Source of the DNA: Rhizomicrobium sp.
Lineage (GTDB): Bacteria > Pseudomonadota > Alphaproteobacteria > Micropepsales > Micropepsaceae
Length of the DNA: 64,000 nt
Assembly: GCA_037200985.1 (NCBI GenBank)
Contig: JBBCGJ010000001.1
Coordinates: 4,440,756 to 4,504,755, forward strand
Reading direction: 5' to 3'
In this document: positions 9,207 to 21,303 of the stretch, piece after piece
Layout of the letters: each line of letters begins with the position of its first letter
How positions within the stretch are numbered: the stretch's first letter is position 1
The notes under the pieces: generated by a model
Database searches by the model: none
Told to the model about the DNA's origin: nothing
The model's input: the letters and a program-made list of their open reading frames with translations, nothing else
Program-made: the position numbers and the translations under genes

Positions 9207-10067
9207 ATGGCTTACGAACATATCGTCTACGAAGTGAAGGACGGGATCGCGACCGTCACGCTCAACCGTCCGGACAAGCTCAACGCCTACACCGCGACCA
9301 TGGGCAGCGAGCTCGAACACGCGTTTCTCGCCGCCGATGCCGACGATGCCGTGCGCGTCGTGATCGTCACCGGCGCGGGCAGGGGCTTCTGTGCCGGCGC
9401 GGACATCTCGGGCGGCGCCAGCGCGTTCGACACCAAGTCCGGCAGCGCCGCAATGTTCCAACCGGCTTCGGGCGAAGCGGCAGGCCGCAAGAGAGGCGGC
9501 TTCATCGGCGCGATCTACAATTGTAGGAAGCCCTCCATCGCCGCGATCAACGGCCCGGCGGTCGGCGTCGGCATCACGCTGACGCTGCCCATGGACATCC
9601 GCATCGCATCCTCCGAAGCGAAATTCGGTTTCGTCTTCGCCCGCCGCGGCCTGGTGCCGGAGGCCGGCAGCGCCTGGTTCCTGCCGCGCCTCGTCGGCCT
9701 GCAGCAGGCTTTGCGCTGGTGCCTCTCCGGCCGCGTCTTCGGGCCTGAGGAAGCCAGGGAAGGCGGCCTCGTCAGCGAGATCGCGGCGCCCGGCGAGCTT
9801 CTCGCCCGCGCCCGCGCCATTGCGGCCGAGATGATCGAGAACACCTCCGCGGTCTCGCTCGCGCTGACGCGCCACATGCTGTGGCAATATTCGGCGCAGA
9901 CCGATCCTTCCGATCTGATCGCGATGGACGGCCCCTTGAGCGTCGAGCTCGGCGCCGGCCCCGATGTGAAGGAAGGCGTCGCCGCCTTCCTGGAAAAACG
10001 CAAACCGAACTTCCCCGGCAAGGTCTCGGCCGGCTGGCCGAAGAGTTACAAGCCGGCGGGACGGTGA
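9207..10067 (+). CDS. Enoyl-CoA hydratase/isomerase family protein
   Basis: A 286-residue crotonase-fold enzyme. The oxyanion-hole segment is GAGRGFCAGADISGG, followed by AAINGPAVGVGITLTLP and the FGFVFARRGLVPEAGSAWFL block that carries the second backbone NH and the catalytic acid position. The ATG at 9207 is preceded by GGGAGG. The downstream repeat at 10097 probably ends the transcript. Crotonases vary widely in reaction, so hydratase activity is the default, not a demonstrated call. Confidence 0.88.
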   Translation: MAYEHIVYEVKDGIATVTLNRPDKLNAYTATMGSELEHAFLAADADDAVRVVIVTGAGRGFCAGADISGGASAFDTKSGSAAMFQPASGEAAGRKRGGFIGAIYNCRKPSIAAINGPAVGVGITLTLPMDIRIASSEAKFGFVFARRGLVPEAGSAWFLPRLVGLQQALRWCLSGRVFGPEEAREGGLVSEIAAPGELLARARAIAAEMIENTSAVSLALTRHMLWQYSAQTDPSDLIAMDGPLSVELGAGPDVKEGVAAFLEKRKPNFPGKVSAGWPKSYKPAGR

Positions 10068-10096
10068 CCTTGGTGCACGGCGCTCTTAACAAGCGC

Positions 10097-10173
10097 TGTC
10101 ATGCCCGCGCAGGCGGGCATCCAGAAATCGGGAGAGCGACGCGACTGGATTCCCGCCTTCGCGGGAATGACAG
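10097..10173. repeat. Palindromic intergenic repeat (REP/BIME-like)
   Basis: Same family as 753-838. The left hairpin is TGTCATGCCCGCGCAGGCGG and the right is TTCCCGCCTTCGCGGGAATG, with CCAG and CTGG as matching inner borders. It sits between the enoyl-CoA hydratase gene and the convergent metallo-hydrolase gene. Confidence 0.85.
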
Positions 10174-10200
10174 CATGTGTTGGGGTCACGCCCCCAGCAT

Positions 10201-10893
10201 TCAATATGGCTGCTTCGGCCCGATCTCCCGCAACAACTCCAGCGCCTCGTCGGCGACATAGCCGTTGGTCTGGCGCTCGCGGCCGAAAGTCGACATCGGG
10301 CCGTGGCCGGGCACGAAATGCATGTCGTTGCCGAGCGGCCAGAGCCGCTGGGTGATCGAATCGATCAGCTGCTGGTGATTGCCGCGCGGAAAATCCGTCC
10401 GCCCGACCGAGCCCGCGAACAGCACGTCGCCGACGAACGCGACCTTCGCGCCCGCATGGAAGAACACGACATGGCCCGGCGTGTGCCCCGGGCAATGCCG
10501 CACGCCGAGCACCGCCTCGCCCACCGTCACCGTGTCGCCGTCCTCGAGCCAGCGCGTCGGGGTGCAGTTTTCGGCCTCGGCAAAGCCCGGCCGCTTGGCG
10601 TTGCGCCCCAGTTCGTCGAGCAGGTACTGGTCGTCGCGATGCGGCCCCTCGATGGGCACGCCGAACTCCCGCGCCAGCCGGGCCGCCCCGCTCGCATGGT
10701 CGAGATGGCCGTGCGTCAGCAGCACCTTCTCCAGCGTGATCCCCTCCTGGGCCAGCGTCGCCTTGATCCGGTCGAGCTCCCCGCCCGGATCGATCACCGC
10801 GCCGCGCCTGGTGCGCGTGCACCACACCACCGAGCAATTCTGCTGGTAGGGGGTGACCGGCAGGATCGCGGCCTTGATCGGGGTCTGTTCCAT
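10201..10893 (-). CDS. MBL-fold metallo-hydrolase (YcbL/glyoxalase II-like)
   Basis: A 230-residue metallo-beta-lactamase-fold hydrolase. The dimetal motif is THGHLDHASG (HxHxDH); further ligands are the His in CPGHTPGHVVFF, the Asp in FVGDVLF, and the His in VPGHGP. Length and the PVTPYQQNCSVV N-terminus match the short YcbL-type glyoxalase II relatives, which hydrolyse thioesters such as S-lactoylglutathione. The start at 10893 lacks a strong ribosome site. Activity is from family knowledge. Confidence 0.88.
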   Translation of the reverse strand: MEQTPIKAAILPVTPYQQNCSVVWCTRTRRGAVIDPGGELDRIKATLAQEGITLEKVLLTHGHLDHASGAARLAREFGVPIEGPHRDDQYLLDELGRNAKRPGFAEAENCTPTRWLEDGDTVTVGEAVLGVRHCPGHTPGHVVFFHAGAKVAFVGDVLFAGSVGRTDFPRGNHQQLIDSITQRLWPLGNDMHFVPGHGPMSTFGRERQTNGYVADEALELLREIGPKQPY

Positions 10894-15912: not shown

Positions 15913-16317
15913 CTAGACGTCGGGCGCGATCAGCGCAACGTCGGGAAAGTAAGTTCGGTAGCGCCGCACATCGCGCGTCAGGATCGGCAGGCCGGCGATC
16001 TGCGCATGCGCGCCGATGAAGAAGTCGGGAAGATTGCTGGTCCGCGTCCCGCCCGCGCTCCGATAGCGGCCGAAAACCGTTCCGGCGAGAAAATACGCGC
16101 TCTTCGGCATGGGATTGAGCGAAAGACCCGCATCCGCGAGCGCCAGATCGAGTTCGGCTTCGCTGGTGCTTTTCACTGCGATTTCGGAATAGACGATTTC
16201 GTTGAAACAGACCGGCCCCAGCGCGGCACGCTCATTGAGTCGTTCGATGGACCAATCGAGCCATTTCGGATCGTGATCCAGGAAATCGACCAGCACATTG
16301 CTGTCGACCAGCGTCAC
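15913..16317 (-). CDS. PIN-domain toxin (VapC-type)
   Basis: A 134-residue PIN-fold ribonuclease. Conserved acidic residues are Asp5 in VDSNVLVDFL, Glu in FNEIVYSE, Asp in LPDFFIGAHA, and Asp in ILTRDVRRY, the usual four metal ligands. The start is GTG at 16317, sharing GTGA with the stop of the AbrB-type antitoxin upstream. VapC toxins cleave tRNA or rRNA; the target here is not readable from sequence. The reading frame is intact. Confidence 0.88.
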   Translation of the reverse strand: MTLVDSNVLVDFLDHDPKWLDWSIERLNERAALGPVCFNEIVYSEIAVKSTSEAELDLALADAGLSLNPMPKSAYFLAGTVFGRYRSAGGTRTSNLPDFFIGAHAQIAGLPILTRDVRRYRTYFPDVALIAPDV

Positions 16318-16577
16318 TCGCGGTTTCCGGTCGCCGGATCGATCGCGCCGCGAGTCATGTCCATGAGTTCGTCGGTGGTGATGCCGCGAATGACGCGCCG
16401 CTTGGCGATTTCATAGAGCCGCGCCTTGTACTCGCCGCTCGTTCCGGGCTTTTCGATGATGATCGCGCCCGATGCCGTGGCGCGCACCTCGACCTTGTCG
16501 CCGGGCCCGATGCCGACCGCATCGCGCACATCCTTGGGCAAGGTAACCTGGCCCTTGACCGTCACGGTGGTCGTCAC
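16314..16577 (-). CDS. AbrB/SpoVT-type antitoxin (VapB)
   Basis: An 87-residue antitoxin. The N-terminal swapped-hairpin DNA-binding fold is VTVKGQVTLPKDVRDAVGIG followed by GDKVEVRATASGAIIIEK. The C-terminal helix (DELMDMTRGAIDPATGNRE) is the likely toxin-binding tail. The start is GTG at 16577. It overlaps the PIN toxin by 4 bases, and a 9-base inverted repeat lies about 10 bases upstream of the start, the expected autoregulatory operator. Confidence 0.88.
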   Translation of the reverse strand: MTTTVTVKGQVTLPKDVRDAVGIGPGDKVEVRATASGAIIIEKPGTSGEYKARLYEIAKRRVIRGITTDELMDMTRGAIDPATGNRE

Positions 16578-16587
16578 GACACCCTCG

Positions 16588-16613
16588 GTATTACTCGGTT
16601 CAAAGAGTAATAC
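16588..16613. promoter_or_regulatory. Candidate VapBC operator
   Basis: A perfect 9-base inverted repeat GTATTACTC / GAGTAATAC separated by 8 bases (GGTTCAAA). It is AT-rich within very GC-rich DNA and lies just upstream of the antitoxin start. Position and symmetry fit a site bound by the AbrB-type antitoxin dimer. Binding is inferred. Confidence 0.6.
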
Positions 16614-16781
16614 TGCGCCTCCGTCCGGTCAAATCAGGCCGTCGCGCGCCGCCGTTACTTGACCGCCGTCGCCAGCAGGCTGGTGCGCTGGTTCCACTGG
16701 AACTGGTTCTGCACGAGCTGCAAGCCGATCAGCGCCATGGCGCCGAGCGCTTGGAGCTGTATTGCGGCGGCGGCGCGCCGC

Positions 16782-17915
16782 CTACGCCATCGCCACGAGC
16801 ACGATCGCGCTCGCCATGGTCAGCACCAAGACCGGGATCGCCCAGGTCAGGTAGAGATAGGCCTGCTCCTGCACCCAGCGGCCGAACAGCTTCTCCACCA
16901 CGTCGAAGCGGTAGAACACCACATTGATCAGAAGGCTGAGCCCCAGCGTGACGTAGTTCAGCGCGAACAGCCGGTTCACCGGATTGTCGCCGGTGCTCAG
17001 GACCTCATAGGCCTGGTTCACCGTGAAGTTCAGCGCGATGACCGCGAACAATCCGCCGATGATCAGGTTCACCAGCTCGAAGGTCTCGATCCCGAACTTG
17101 CCGTCCTCCATGTGGTTCAGCCAGATCGCCAGCAGGGGAATGAGCAGCGAGGCGAACAGCGGAATGAAGATCGACGCCAGGACCGAGCCCGGCTCCCGCG
17201 CGACGGTCAGCGAGGCCACGGCGCGCGTGTGCATCGCGCCGTACCAGCCCTTGAGCGGCTGGCTGGTCAGCGCCACGGTCTTGATCGACCAGCCGTTCAG
17301 CGACGCGTCGGGATCGGCCTGGCTGAAATCCAGATCGTCCTGGTCGTATTGCAGCACCACCTGGTCGGAGGTCTGGCCCCGGATCGCCGCCTCGATCTGC
17401 AGCTTCTGGCGGTCGAACGGGAATCGCGTCACCTCGTAAGGCGTCGCGAACTCGCCGGTGATGCGCTTGATCATCTCCACGTCGCCGCTGGGGAAGATCC
17501 GCAGGCCCAGATTGGTATAGGTCGGATCGCCCTTCTCGTTGGCGATCTCGATCGCCGGCACCCAGATGGTGGCGAGCTGCGCCTTCGCGTCGTCGCCGCG
17601 ATAGACCTTGGGCGGATCGGTCTGTTCCTCGTCCGGCCGGCGCAGGCTCGGCACTTCCCAGCGCAGGCGCACATCGACCGTGCCCTTGAAGGTGCCGGCG
17701 TTCTCGTCGAAGGATTCGAGATCGACGAAGGCAACGCCCACCTTCACGATCAGGGGCGTGCCCTTTTCCATCGGCATCGTCGGCGGCATGGCCGTGGTGG
17801 TGGCCGGCGGCGGCTCCTGGCCGGCGAAGGCGATGCCGCCGAGGCCGAGCGCGATCAGCGCCAGCGCCAGAAGCGAGCGCTTCGTGCCGCCGCCCTTCAG
17901 GAAAGAGCGCTTCAT
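16782..17915 (-). CDS. Prokaryotic pentameric ligand-gated ion channel (GLIC-like)
   Basis: A 377-residue subunit of the Cys-loop/Pro-loop receptor superfamily, expected to form a homopentameric channel in the inner membrane. Residues 1-31 are a signal peptide. The extracellular beta-sandwich spans about 52-240 and holds the Pro-loop signature FPFDRQ at 165-170, without the flanking cysteines seen in animals. Four helices follow: M1 243-266, M2 279-300 (FELVNLIIGGLFAVIALNF), M3 314-336, M4 352-376. The M2-M3 loop NPVNRLFALNY resembles GLIC. Its ATG overlaps the stop of the dCache gene (ATGA), so the two are made together. The ligand is unknown. Confidence 0.9.
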   Translation of the reverse strand: MKRSFLKGGGTKRSLLALALIALGLGGIAFAGQEPPPATTTAMPPTMPMEKGTPLIVKVGVAFVDLESFDENAGTFKGTVDVRLRWEVPSLRRPDEEQTDPPKVYRGDDAKAQLATIWVPAIEIANEKGDPTYTNLGLRIFPSGDVEMIKRITGEFATPYEVTRFPFDRQKLQIEAAIRGQTSDQVVLQYDQDDLDFSQADPDASLNGWSIKTVALTSQPLKGWYGAMHTRAVASLTVAREPGSVLASIFIPLFASLLIPLLAIWLNHMEDGKFGIETFELVNLIIGGLFAVIALNFTVNQAYEVLSTGDNPVNRLFALNYVTLGLSLLINVVFYRFDVVEKLFGRWVQEQAYLYLTWAIPVLVLTMASAIVLVAMA

Positions 17916-19027
17916 TCGCCGTGCCCCGGCTTGACCGTGCCTTGCAGTTCCGCGAGGTCCCGGATCTCCTTGCAGAACTTGTCGGTATCCTCGGCCGGCT
18001 CCGCGCCGCCCGCCTCGGCGCGCAGCCGCTCGGTGACGATGCTCAAGGGACGCAGCAGGAAGCCGCGGATCACGATGATGATGGCGCCCGCCATCAGCAC
18101 GATGCCGAAGATCGCCGCGGCGATCTGCCAGACGAAGGACTGGCTCGCCGCCGCGCGCGACGGGCTGAAATCGCGCGTCAGCGCGATCACGCCCAGCGAC
18201 TCGCCGGCGCCGTTGCGCAAGGGGACCAAGAGCACGCCATAGGGGATGCCGTCGGCGTCGCGCGCGTAGCGCACCGGCTGGCTCACGCCAGCGAGGTCGG
18301 CGTCGCCGATCAGCGATTTCATCAGGACGGCGTTGGTCGTGTGATAGCGGATGAAATGGCTGACGCGGTTCTGGTCGCTGTAGATCGACGGATCGATGCC
18401 CTTGGCGATGTCGCGCAGCGGCTTCTCCTCGACATAGAGCGTCGCATCCAGGCCGTAGGTCGCCTTGAGCTGGTCGAGCACCGGGCCGAAATCCACGCCG
18501 AATTCGAAACTGCCGATATGGGCGCCGGCCTTGTCGTGGATCGGCGCGATGCCGAAGATCGCCGGGCCCGAGCGGGCGATGGCGAAGCCCTTGCGCGGCT
18601 GGTGGTCGCGGTTCACCGCCACCACCATCGGCCGGCTGCGCGTCAGGTCGTCGCCGAAATTGGTCGGCGCCTGCAGCCGCAGCAGCGACGTCGCGGGCGG
18701 CAGATGGAACTGCGACTGCGACACGCCGTGGCGGTCGCGCTGCACCGCGTACATCTCGCCGAACAGGGCGAGCAGCTTGTCGTGGTCCTTGGCCGCCACC
18801 GCTTCGCGCGTGATGTCGAGGTCCGCGACGATGTCGGCGCGGGCCAGCGCGCGCTCGGCCGCGCCGTCGAGCGACGAGGTCAGGATCGACTGCATGAGCT
18901 GGTACTGGCCCTGCTCGACGGAGTCGGTCAGGCCGCTGAACAGTTTGTTCGAAACGAAGGTCAGAGTGAGGATGACGATGGCGGATGCGACGATCAGCGC
19001 GACGGGCGCGCTGCGGCGGAAAGTCAT
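17912..19027 (-). CDS. Membrane-anchored dCache sensor protein without an output domain
   Basis: A 371-residue protein with one N-terminal membrane helix (residues 8-28), a large periplasmic region, a second helix near 298-322, and a short cytoplasmic tail of about 45 residues. The periplasmic part carries dCache_3-type landmarks: FHLPPATSLLRLQ, the FGDDLTRSRP block, and GIAPIHDKAGAHIGSFEFG. The tail starts like a HAMP domain (LLRPLSIVTERLRAE) but no kinase, cyclase or chemotaxis module follows. The start ATG 19027 is preceded by GGGGG; an upstream ATG at 19054 is possible. The overlap with the channel gene suggests the two proteins act together. Confidence 0.85.
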   Translation of the reverse strand: MTFRRSAPVALIVASAIVILTLTFVSNKLFSGLTDSVEQGQYQLMQSILTSSLDGAAERALARADIVADLDITREAVAAKDHDKLLALFGEMYAVQRDRHGVSQSQFHLPPATSLLRLQAPTNFGDDLTRSRPMVVAVNRDHQPRKGFAIARSGPAIFGIAPIHDKAGAHIGSFEFGVDFGPVLDQLKATYGLDATLYVEEKPLRDIAKGIDPSIYSDQNRVSHFIRYHTTNAVLMKSLIGDADLAGVSQPVRYARDADGIPYGVLLVPLRNGAGESLGVIALTRDFSPSRAAASQSFVWQIAAAIFGIVLMAGAIIIVIRGFLLRPLSIVTERLRAEAGGAEPAEDTDKFCKEIRDLAELQGTVKPGHGE

Positions 19028-19166
19028 GAATGCCCCCAAGAAAGCCGCGCCCAAACGGCCGGTGTCGCCAAGCTAATGGCGGTTTAGCCCAGCGCGATCA
19101 ACAACCTTCGCGTTGCAGCATCGCGCGCGGCGGCGTTTCTTTTTGGAACGGTGCGCGCCGACGCGA

Positions 19167-19829
19167 TCAGTTGGAATTGGTGCCCGCTTCGACCTGCTTG
19201 CGCTTGGCGTTCACGTCGGCGATCAGCTTGGCGATGCTGCCGTTGTTGTTGCCGAGGAAGCTGGTGAACTGCGCCTGTTCCTCGATCGCGATCCAGATGC
19301 CGGCGACGCCGAAGTCGATGATCACCATCCGTCCGTTGTCGTTGACGACGCGGAAATCGACCTCCAGCGGCTGCTTGCCGCTGGTGTCGCTCGGATCGAT
19401 GAGATGGGTCTGGACGATGGTGTCGCCCGGCGCCCGCTCCTGGCTGCCGAACACCTGGAGCGTCTGCCCGGAATATTTCGCGAAATAGGACTGGTACACC
19501 GCGACGGCGTAGTTCTGGAACGCGGCGGCGAACTGATCCTGCTCCTGGGGGCTGGCGGTGCGGTAGTACTGGCCGAGCGTGAAATTCGCGATGCGGCGCA
19601 TATTGGTCAGGCCGAGGATGAAGGTCTGGAACTGCGACTTGCGCTGCGCCTCGCTCGCGCCCGTGTTGTTCAGGATCGTGAGGCCCTTCGCGACGTTCGT
19701 CGCGATGAACGCTTCCGCCGGCGGGGCCGCGCTCGCGGGCGCGGCGGCGAACAGGTTCGCGGCCGCCACCATCAGGGCCAGGGCGCCGCGGCGCGCGATT
19801 GCGGGCATGCGAAGGGACATCTCGAACAT
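19167..19829 (-). CDS. mlaC: MlaC/Ttg2D-family phospholipid-binding protein
   Basis: Periplasmic lipid-carrier of the Mla pathway (220 aa), which shuttles phospholipid between the outer-membrane MlaA complex and the inner-membrane MlaFEDB transporter. A signal peptide ends APASAA near residue 35. The mature chain has the family pattern: LTNMRRIANFTLGQYYRTAS, then FQNYAVAVYQSYFAKYSGQ, and VDFRVVNDNGRMVIIDFGVAGIWIA. Start ATG 19829 follows GAGGAAAG. The only other mla gene visible is the broken mlaA upstream. Confidence 0.9.
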   Translation of the reverse strand: MFEMSLRMPAIARRGALALMVAAANLFAAAPASAAPPAEAFIATNVAKGLTILNNTGASEAQRKSQFQTFILGLTNMRRIANFTLGQYYRTASPQEQDQFAAAFQNYAVAVYQSYFAKYSGQTLQVFGSQERAPGDTIVQTHLIDPSDTSGKQPLEVDFRVVNDNGRMVIIDFGVAGIWIAIEEQAQFTSFLGNNNGSIAKLIADVNAKRKQVEAGTNSN

Positions 19830-19894
19830 GGAAAATCTTTCCTCGGCGGGACCCCCAGGATCAAGGCCCCTTGTGGCAAGTTCGTGGCAGGGCT

Positions 19895-20180
19895 TCAGAA
19901 CGCCGGCAAATCCTCTACATCCGGCCGCCCATTGCGAATTTCGTTGTTGCGAAGCTGCCTGTAAAGGCTGCGCAACGACGCGTAGTAGTCCAGCGAGCCG
20001 CGCTCGATGCCGCCCACCGTCTCATAGGTCTGTCCGCGCAGGTCCAGCAGGTTGAAGGCATAGCGCCCGGCCTCCCACCACAGATGCTGCTTGAACCGCA
20101 CGCATTTCCGGCGTCGGCGTCGCGCAGCCCGCAAGCGCCGACACGCCGACAGCGGCGAGCATTCCCCGTAGCTTGAACAT
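19895..20180 (-). pseudogene. mlaA: Decayed mlaA (VacJ lipoprotein) remnant
   Basis: An ATG at 20180 starts a lipoprotein signal peptide (MFKLRGMLAAVGVSALAGCA, lipobox LAGC), but this frame closes after 52 codons. The real C-terminus of MlaA continues in another frame: RGQTYETVGGIERGSLDYYA and SLRSLYRQLRNNEIRNG, ending LPAF at 19895. The whole relic is 286 bases, about 95 codons, against roughly 230-260 for intact MlaA, so a large internal deletion plus a frame change has occurred. It lies 65 bases upstream of mlaC on the same strand, the standard order. A sequencing error cannot explain the missing centre. Confidence 0.75.
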
Positions 20181-20296
20181 CCCCACCTAGCCCGATTTCC
20201 GGCAGTCTATATCGGCAGAATGGTTGATGGCGCAAACACCCCGGCGGCAATGGAGACTGCCGGAATCGGCGTCCCATCGAAAAGGATTGCATAATC

Positions 20297-20316
20297 ATAT
20301 AAAGATATGTTTATAT
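20297..20316. promoter_or_regulatory. Candidate SahR-type operator
   Basis: Inverted repeat ATATAAA-GATATG-TTTATAT (7-base arms, 6-base spacer), strikingly AT-rich, 21 bases upstream of the start of the ArsR-methyltransferase regulator that leads the metF operon. This AAAGATAT-type symmetry resembles the site I recall for SahR, the S-adenosylhomocysteine-responsive ArsR regulator of methionine genes. The symmetry is seen; the regulator assignment is inference. Confidence 0.6.
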
Positions 20317-20337
20317 CCATCCGTCTTGGAGACGATG

Positions 20338-21303
20338 ATGGACGAATTGGTGGCCATGCTGCGTGCCGCGGGCGATCCGACCCGCCTGCGCCTGCTGCTG
20401 CTCCTGCGCCAGGCGGAGCTGACGGTCAGCGAGCTGGTCGACATCGTGGGCCAGAGCCAGCCGCGCGTCTCCCGCCATCTGAAATTGCTGACCGAGGCCC
20501 ATCTGATCGAGCGCTTCAAGGAAGGAAGCTGGGTGTTCTACCGCGCCTGCGACCGCGGCCAGGGGGCCGAGCTCGGCGCCACCATCGCCGGCATCGCCGC
20601 GCCGCAGGAGCCCGATCTGAAGCGCCTCGCCCAGGTACGCGAATCCCGCGCCGCCGAGGCCGCCGCCTTCTTCAAGGCCAATGCCGCGGAATGGGAGCGC
20701 ATCCGCGGTCTGCATGCGCCCGACAAGGATGTGGAAGCGGCCATCGTCCGCCACATCGCCGAACAGCCGATGGATTCGCTGCTCGATGCCGGCACCGGCA
20801 CGGGCAGCATGCTCGAACTGCTCAGCCCACACGTGAAGCGCGCTGTCGGCATCGACGTCAGCCCGGAGATGCTCGCCATCGCGCGCGACCGCCTCGCGCG
20901 CGCCGACATCCATCACGCCCAGGTGCGCCTCGGCGACATCTACCGCCTGCCGTTCCCGACCGGCAACACGCTCAGCGGCTTCGACGCGGTGCTGCTGCAC
21001 CAAGTGCTGCATTATCTCGACGATCCGCAGGCCGCGGTGGTGGAGGCCGCGCGCGTCCTGCGCGGCGGCGGGCGCCTTTTGATCGCCGACTTCGCTCCCC
21101 ACGCGCTGGAATTCCTGCGCGAGGATTTCGCCCATCGCCGTCTCGGCTTCTCCGACCGCGAGATCCACGGCTGGCTCGACGCCGCCGGCCTCAAATCGCT
21201 CACCGGCGAGACCGTGGTGCCGCGCGCCGCCGGCGCCGACAAGCTCATCGTCAAGATATGGCTCGCGCAGAAGTCCGCGGGCGCCAAGGCAGAGGCCGCA
21301 TGA
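20338..21303 (+). CDS. ArsR-family regulator fused to a SAM-methyltransferase domain (SahR-like)
   Basis: A 321-residue two-domain protein. Residues 1-90 are a winged helix with recognition segment QSQPRVSRHLKLLTEAHLIE. From about 130 a class I methyltransferase fold follows, with the SAM loop LLDAGTGTGSMLELL, then VGIDVSPEML and ADFAPH. ArsR-methyltransferase fusions beside metF and metH are known as SahR-type regulators that sense S-adenosylhomocysteine, so the domain may bind rather than methylate. ATG 20338 is preferred over 20335 for its spacing to GGAG. The stop overlaps the metF start (ATGA). Confidence 0.85.
   Translation: MDELVAMLRAAGDPTRLRLLLLLRQAELTVSELVDIVGQSQPRVSRHLKLLTEAHLIERFKEGSWVFYRACDRGQGAELGATIAGIAAPQEPDLKRLAQVRESRAAEAAAFFKANAAEWERIRGLHAPDKDVEAAIVRHIAEQPMDSLLDAGTGTGSMLELLSPHVKRAVGIDVSPEMLAIARDRLARADIHHAQVRLGDIYRLPFPTGNTLSGFDAVLLHQVLHYLDDPQAAVVEAARVLRGGGRLLIADFAPHALEFLREDFAHRRLGFSDREIHGWLDAAGLKSLTGETVVPRAAGADKLIVKIWLAQKSAGAKAEAA

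Follow-up and report, generated by a model that had tools for sequence, protein, structure and literature searches.

What pentameric ligand-gated ion channels (pLGICs) do in bacteria is, to our knowledge, largely an open question. The closest described case of such a channel beside a Cache sensor comes from one bacterium, Rhodopseudomonas, in which a pLGIC gene and a gene for a stand-alone Cache domain form a predicted operon; functional cooperation of the two was proposed, with a role perhaps in chemotaxis (Tasneem et al., 2004; PMC549065). The same paper describes bacterial pLGICs fused to Cache and MCP-N domains as well as pLGIC operons with PBP-II genes, and ELIC has been placed in another operon (PMC3119659). 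Here we analyse a 64,000-nucleotide stretch of a Rhizomicrobium genome (assembly GCA_037200985.1, contig JBBCGJ010000001.1, positions 4,440,756 to 4,504,755; hereafter the window), in which the gene for a dCache_3 sensor overlaps the pLGIC gene that follows it. Since the two genes stay side by side even in bacteria that are only distantly related, control of the channel by the sensor is probable, and this could help to uncover the function of bacterial pLGICs. The window pair resembles the Rhodopseudomonas pair in that a pLGIC gene and a separate Cache gene lie next to each other, in the same direction, as a predicted operon; the class of Cache domain, its membrane anchoring and its lack of an output are not described in the passages of PMC549065 that concern this operon. 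The pairing as an idea is therefore not new, being already in Tasneem et al.; new here are its breadth, its strict conservation among the loci found, the origin of the sensor as a membrane-anchored truncated receptor, and a host in which no methyl-accepting chemotaxis protein (MCP) was matched.

Beyond Tasneem et al., searches of open-licence PMC papers that joined pLGIC or Cys-loop with Cache or dCache listed only PMC7542364 and PMC6250842, both on chemotaxis by their titles, and a term search of Jaiteh et al., 2016 (PMC4795631) found no occurrence of Cache or operon. Upadhyay et al., 2016 (PMC4822843) count 883 dCache_3 proteins, with kinase (327), MCP (236) and c-di-GMP (248) outputs and no ion channel; their Table 1 places ion-channel proteins under dCache_1 (467) and none under dCache_3.

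The overlap of the two genes is confirmed: an earlier note on this DNA had reported that they overlap by ATGA, and overlap, coordinates and strand are all exact (17912-17915; Table 1). The channel, a protein of 377 residues, matches the Pfam family Neur_chan_LBD (PF02931, E 3.5e-13) above the cut-off, PF02932 not being matched in the same scan, and its best match among PDB sequences is GLIC (E from 1.4e-16). Its hydropathy profile has an N-terminal hydrophobic stretch and four membrane stretches; a PF02931-homologous ligand-binding domain followed by four membrane helices is the build of a pLGIC, and the earlier assignment to this family is borne out by the PF02931 and GLIC matches. The sensor, of 371 residues, matches dCache_3 (PF14827, E 3.4e-22, residues 47-205) between two hydrophobic stretches (residues 2-31 and 294-333), the arrangement of a dCache_3 receptor; coverage of the Pfam model is near-complete in the sensors of genomes G012 (15-234), G900 (26-236) and G1152 (5-237). 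No other family rose above the cut-off in the Pfam scan of the window sensor, and an NCBIfam scan of it gave no match. The earlier description of a protein with two membrane helices, a periplasmic sensor and no output thus agrees with the dCache_3 match, the hydropathy and the Pfam scan. A TTG 27 nt upstream (19054) is a possible alternative start of the gene, but we favour ATG 19027: its methionine (MxFRxSAP) corresponds to the one that opens the longest frame in both the G012 and the PBB3 sensor. The longest frame of the G066 sensor begins further upstream. Used alone as a query against a collection of genome contigs, the sensor found no relative, and a PDB sequence search with it gave nothing beyond two matches at E ~0.8. 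In a fold search with its predicted model, chemoreceptor models came out on top, integrative models of B. subtilis McpB first, a result that is indicative only.

Within the channel clade that includes the window channel, all 16 channels found, in 15 genomes, have a sensor gene directly upstream. The hosts belong to families f1, f174 and f197 and to a Burkholderiales metagenome-assembled genome (MAG), PBB3; that is, to alphaproteobacteria and one betaproteobacterial MAG. Around each of the nine channels outside the clade (loci L041-L044, L061-L064 and L066), no sensor homologue was present in the 8-19 kb taken, L063 offering only 429 bp before the channel at a contig start. The genome searches sampled each group, except for the host's family and order, and unseen exceptions to the pairing may exist. 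In the host's family, four of 96 genomes have a channel match and three of these carry the pair, the fourth (G067) having a distant pLGIC beside a TspO gene; the order, again 96 genomes, returned the same three pair genomes at E 1e-10. Among 385 genomes drawn from the class, four matched at E 1e-10: the host and three with distant, unpaired channels. The PBB3 channel, 43% identical to that of the window, has its sensor directly upstream, and no match other than PBB3 itself and a distant, unpaired channel turned up among 399 genomes drawn from the order of PBB3. When 398 genomes sampled from the phylum were searched with PF02931, six of them gave seven matches, of which those in the host, G900 and G1152 are paired and the other four unpaired. 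For f174, the family of G1152, a sample of 218 genomes yielded 11 clade channels in 10 genomes, every one with the sensor directly upstream.

Adjacency, gene order and close coupling are preserved at all 16 loci. In every pair the channel could begin no more than 4 nt from the sensor stop; a 4-nt NTGA overlap is possible in 12 of the 16, the overlap is 1 nt in G1312, and in G1428, G1303b and G1382 the channel can start 1-3 nt after the sensor stop. The flanking genes within 3.5 kb nevertheless sort the 16 loci into 11 contexts in which the pair is the only common element: the window shares its context with G066, G1312 with G1334 and G1388, G1303b with G1382, and G1330 with G1400, the remaining seven being single (a weak G1330-G1382 cross-match, 25%, was left out of this count, and G900 has only 388 bp before the sensor, so that its upstream context is hidden from view). 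A conserved third gene was considered and rejected, the candidates being a bestrophin-like gene in G066, a GGDEF gene in PBB3 and CorA in 3 of 16 loci. The earlier note had made its proposal depend in part on the pairing not being confined to close relatives; it proved to hold at 16 of 16 loci, across 11 neighbourhoods, in alpha- and betaproteobacterial hosts. Both genes are under purifying selection, with ratios of nonsynonymous to synonymous substitution rates (dN/dS) between window and G066 of 0.135 for the sensor and 0.093 for the channel; the former value, together with 0.089 between the G1303b and G1382 sensors, rules out that the sensor is a pseudogene.

The host genome, from a family to which G012 also belongs, is complete in a single contig of 4.64 Mb, in which the window sensor is the only dCache_3 match and the window channel the only PF02931 match at E 1e-6. 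Together with the arrangement preserved at 16 loci, this speaks against a chance neighbourhood. Of six pair genomes that were looked at, four have no dCache_3 match besides the paired sensor, while G900 has five matches and G476 two. The MCP signalling domain had no match in the host genome, where motility genes were not searched for; in other pair genomes MCP matches number one (G066, G012), 13 (G476), 18 (G1152) and 33 (G900). A scan of window positions 16500-20400 found no sigma-70-like promoter. The plasmid collection gave no match to the pair and the viral contigs no confirmed match; carriage of the pair by plasmids or viruses thus has no support.

Sensor and channel have diverged in step. 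Their identities to the window proteins fall together, from 93/96% (sensor/channel) in G066 through 55/56% in G012, 40/43% in PBB3 and 38/42% in G900 to 24/23% in G1152. Over 120 comparisons the two identity matrices correlate with r = 0.977 (largest difference 8 points; none of 20000 permutations as high), r being 0.98 within clade A of the pairs and 0.81 within clade B. Genome G1303 carries one pair of each clade, and each channel stands beside a sensor of its own clade. In the channel tree, the 16 paired channels are united against the nine outside with a Shimodaira-Hasegawa-like approximate likelihood ratio test (SH-aLRT) value of 99, and with support of 100/97 when six pairs are used. The sensor tree joins clades A and B weakly (92/85 with six pairs, 16 with all 16 pairs in a quick tree). 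It includes 25 of the 29 unpaired loci L009-L037 (L028, L030 and L031 lie above E 1e-15, and L037 is the same protein as L029); the G1152 sensor entered the trees without the 79 N-terminal residues that precede its aligned start, and whole in the identity and residue comparisons. The Rhodopseudomonas pair could be a member of either clade, A or B, and may lie in family f174.

The sensors beside channels lack what their relatives carry. All 13 of the 16 paired sensors that were scanned against Pfam (G066, G1382 and G1330 were left out; listing limits 0.001 to 1) match dCache_3, and none has a HAMP, MCP, kinase or GGDEF match, which is why we do not file the window sensor as an MCP or kinase. 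Among unpaired relatives, scanned at 19 of 29 loci, 14 are MCPs with HAMP and three are histidine kinases, two of which (L023 and L033) have no HAMP match; the remaining two without output are L012, cut by the contig end, and L010/L045, which stops after HAMP. The latter protein, of 397 residues (L045 9005-10198), is a dCache_3-HAMP protein without output that ends 166 bp from the contig end. The lack of an output noted earlier for the window sensor therefore extends to 13 of 13 scanned paired sensors, against 17 of 19 unpaired ones with MCP or kinase. The ectodomain has been kept: R117, R132, G147 and G177 are present in all 16 paired and all 25 unpaired sensors. From these signature residues and the domain scans it follows that the ectodomain is retained and the output missing where the neighbour is a channel, and loss of the output half would be a simpler reading than never having had one. 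The membrane-proximal end has features of its own: R321 in the second membrane stretch is kept in 16/16 paired and 2/25 unpaired sensors, and the paired tails, which start in a HAMP-like manner (most with RG..LRPL), are over after some 60 residues at most. The window tail with the preceding RPL motif likewise resembles a HAMP domain, a likeness seen in the sequence only, as no HAMP match was found.

On the channel side, the FPFD motif of the Pro-loop is kept (F165, P166 and F167 in 16/16 paired channels, D168 in 15/16), and the inner end of M2 is acidic (E or D) in all 16, at what we take to be the -1' position. In animal receptors an acidic -1' residue goes with cation selectivity, and this ring at the inner pore mouth suggests that the channel is probably cation-selective. 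Nine channel residues are clade-specific, seven of them in M1, M2 or M3, while the other two, G223 and W224, belong to the ligand-binding domain. Part of a GW pair and presumably in the loop C region, W224 is found in 16/16 paired channels and 0/9 others, as are A255 (M1) and A291 (M2); L295 (M2) and Y321 (M3) occur in 16/16 and 1/9. The M1-M2 loop is about seven residues longer in all 10 clade-A channels than in the six of clade B, and in all nine unpaired channels it is shorter than in clade A by 6-9 residues. These residues and the longer clade-A loop may be candidates for contact with the partner, or simple clade markers.

We consider it nearly certain that sensor and channel are functionally linked. 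In the most likely form of this link, to which we give a probability of about 0.6, the sensor is an auxiliary subunit that senses a ligand and acts on the channel. This reading, put forward in the earlier note, is supported in part; we infer that the two proteins touch, that the sensor binds a ligand and gates the channel, and that control runs from sensor to channel. The sensor would be a chemoreceptor-like dCache_3 receptor which retains its periplasmic ligand domain and both membrane helices and is without the cytoplasmic signalling half, its gene being translationally coupled to that of a probably cation-selective pLGIC. Presumably a dimer, by analogy with dCache receptors, it would sit beside the channel pentamer in the inner membrane, bind a small periplasmic solute and bias channel opening, and ion flux or membrane potential would take the place of a cytoplasmic output. 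A bolder and more tentative version is that a chemoreceptor-derived dimer signals sideways to the pLGIC as its output domain, through contact of channel M1/M3 with the second sensor helix; we know of no experimental precedent for such signalling from receptor to channel.

Several points weigh against a ligand-sensing auxiliary subunit. dCache receptors are dimers, which do not match the symmetry of a pentameric channel. With a ligand-binding domain of its own, the channel may need no helper for sensing. G900 and G476 have other dCache_3 genes, and G900, G1152 and G476 many MCPs, from which an output could be borrowed there. With clades A and B grouping weakly, the sensor tree does not demonstrate that the pair arose only once, and the matrix correlation is partly due to shared species history, above all within f174, which holds 11 of the 16 pairs; the matched A and B pairs of G1303 are not given by species history alone. 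Finally, the predicted single-chain models are weak for the channel (predicted local distance difference test, pLDDT, 57.5) and poor for the sensor (49.9), too weak to carry an argument about an interface.

The sensor could instead be an assembly, trafficking or stability subunit of the channel, whose bound ligand matters little for gating. Strict pairing and close coupling would suit any obligate subunit, and Tasneem et al. (PMC549065) drew the parallel with alpha2-delta; we nevertheless regard this as unlikely, given that the four ectodomain residues are as strictly kept as in unpaired receptors. GLIC and ELIC, moreover, assemble without helpers. Less probable still is that the sensor captures or concentrates a solute for the ligand-binding domain of the channel, as proposed in 2004, and does not act through the membrane: the retention of that domain, the position of the clade-specific W224 within it and the unpaired L064 pLGIC beside a periplasmic phosphonate-type binding protein agree with such a role, for which both membrane helices and the conserved end of the second one (R321, with RG..LRPL in most) would be needless. 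We hold it to be improbable that the sensor has its output, by way of the short tail or of a partner receptor, in a kinase, a cyclase or a chemoreceptor, with a channel that is co-regulated but acts apart. In favour of this are the resemblance of the tail to a remnant of HAMP, the GGDEF gene after the pair in PBB3, and the 33, 18 and 13 MCP matches of G900, G1152 and G476; against it, the host genome has no MCP match and G066 and G012 one each, and the loci have no third gene in common (CorA is seen in three f174 loci, a bestrophin-like gene in G066 and GGDEF in PBB3). Passive linkage, in which descent or transfer carries the operon along and no functional tie exists, would fit the rare and patchy occurrence of the pair, which is typical of mobile gene pairs (in the host's family 3 of 96 genomes have it), and is very hard to reconcile with its retention at 16/16 loci across 11 contexts, where identities fall as low as about 20%, and with purifying selection on both genes in the two genome couples tested.

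Table 1. The sensor-channel pair in window coordinates (position 1 is the first nucleotide of the window).
Feature	Position	Strand	Basis
Channel: signal peptide-like stretch, pLGIC ligand-binding domain, four membrane helices	16782..17915	-	hydropathy and low-confidence model
Channel ligand-binding domain, residues 48-240	17196..17774	-	
Channel Trp 224 of GW pair in ligand-binding domain	17244..17246	-	
Channel M1, residues 241-269	17109..17195	-	hydropathy
Channel M1-M2 loop, residues 270-277	17085..17108	-	read off alignments
Channel M2 pore helix, residues 278-302, acidic residue E280 at inner end	17010..17084	-	
Channel M3, residues 312-337	16905..16982	-	model and hydropathy
Channel M4, residues 346-376	16788..16880	-	model and hydropathy
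Overlap (ATGA) of sensor stop and channel start, 4 nt	17912..17915	-	
Sensor: transmembrane (TM) helix, dCache_3 periplasmic domain, TM helix, short cytoplasmic tail, no output domain	17912..19027	-	
Sensor TM1, residues 2-31	18935..19024	-	hydropathy
Sensor dCache_3 match, residues 47-205 (model 13-169 of 239)	18413..18889	-	
Sensor TM2 stretch, residues 294-333	18029..18148	-	hydropathy
Sensor cytoplasmic tail, residues 334-371	17915..18028	-	

The surroundings of the pair vary. In the window, genes for a MazE-like antitoxin and a PIN-domain protein, a toxin-antitoxin-like module, lie about 0.2 kb downstream of the channel (15913-16577, minus strand), and an MlaC gene lies 139 bp upstream of the sensor (19167-19829, minus strand); in G066 an MlaA gene adjoins MlaC. 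G066 also has about 1 kb extra (L039 7379-8381, against window 16755-16770) with a bestrophin-like gene (PF14023; L039 7514-8362), which sits between the pLGIC and the MazE gene and is absent from the window. The flanks of all other loci have no gene in common with these two. In PBB3 a GGDEF diguanylate cyclase gene starts 26 bp after the channel (L048 7104-8294). Three of the 16 loci have a gene for a CorA-type Mg2+ transporter next to the pair (L090 4083-5123, L093 6235-7278 and L092 7268-8269), downstream in two and upstream in one, which hints at cation homeostasis. As for unpaired channels, a distant pLGIC of the same genus (L041 8642-9688) lies 1 bp from a convergent TspO/MBR gene (9690-10283), and at L064 (3503-9013) an unpaired pLGIC precedes a periplasmic binding protein of the phosphonate type and a large hybrid histidine kinase, another receptor-channel neighbourhood and one that resembles the PBP-II operons of Tasneem et al. 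(PMC549065).

A partner co-inherited at every clade locus found offers a handle on bacterial pLGIC function: the pairing narrows the search for a ligand to what dCache_3 receptors bind, and the pair provides a two-gene unit for reconstitution. If sideways signalling were true, an ancient ion-channel family known from the nervous system would do the work of a bacterial receptor's output domain in these organisms. The lack of an MCP match in the host suggests that chemotaxis, put forward as the role in 2004, is not a necessary function of the unit, and makes that role doubtful in this host; over all pair genomes the picture is mixed, with no MCP match in the host but 13-33 in three others.

Set against known systems, the window channel is closest by sequence and by model to GLIC, the proton-gated channel of Gloeobacter: with the predicted model, GLIC chains were matched with E values down to 6e-19 over about 340 columns at about 20% identity. 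GLIC is not known to need a partner gene. With the dCache_3 chemoreceptors (MCPs) the sensor shares its ectodomain and membrane helices, the 13 scanned paired sensors being without the HAMP or MCP match. The pLGICs of Methanosarcina, Cytophaga and Microbulbifer described in PMC549065 carry an N-terminal Cache and an MCP-N domain fused in one polypeptide, whereas the window pair consists of two membrane proteins. Like the alpha2-delta subunit of animal voltage-gated calcium channels, a Cache-bearing auxiliary subunit of an ion channel (PMC549065; PMC4822843), the sensor would accompany a channel, but one of another family, the pLGICs; the pair could be a prokaryotic counterpart of the Cache-bearing auxiliary channel subunits.

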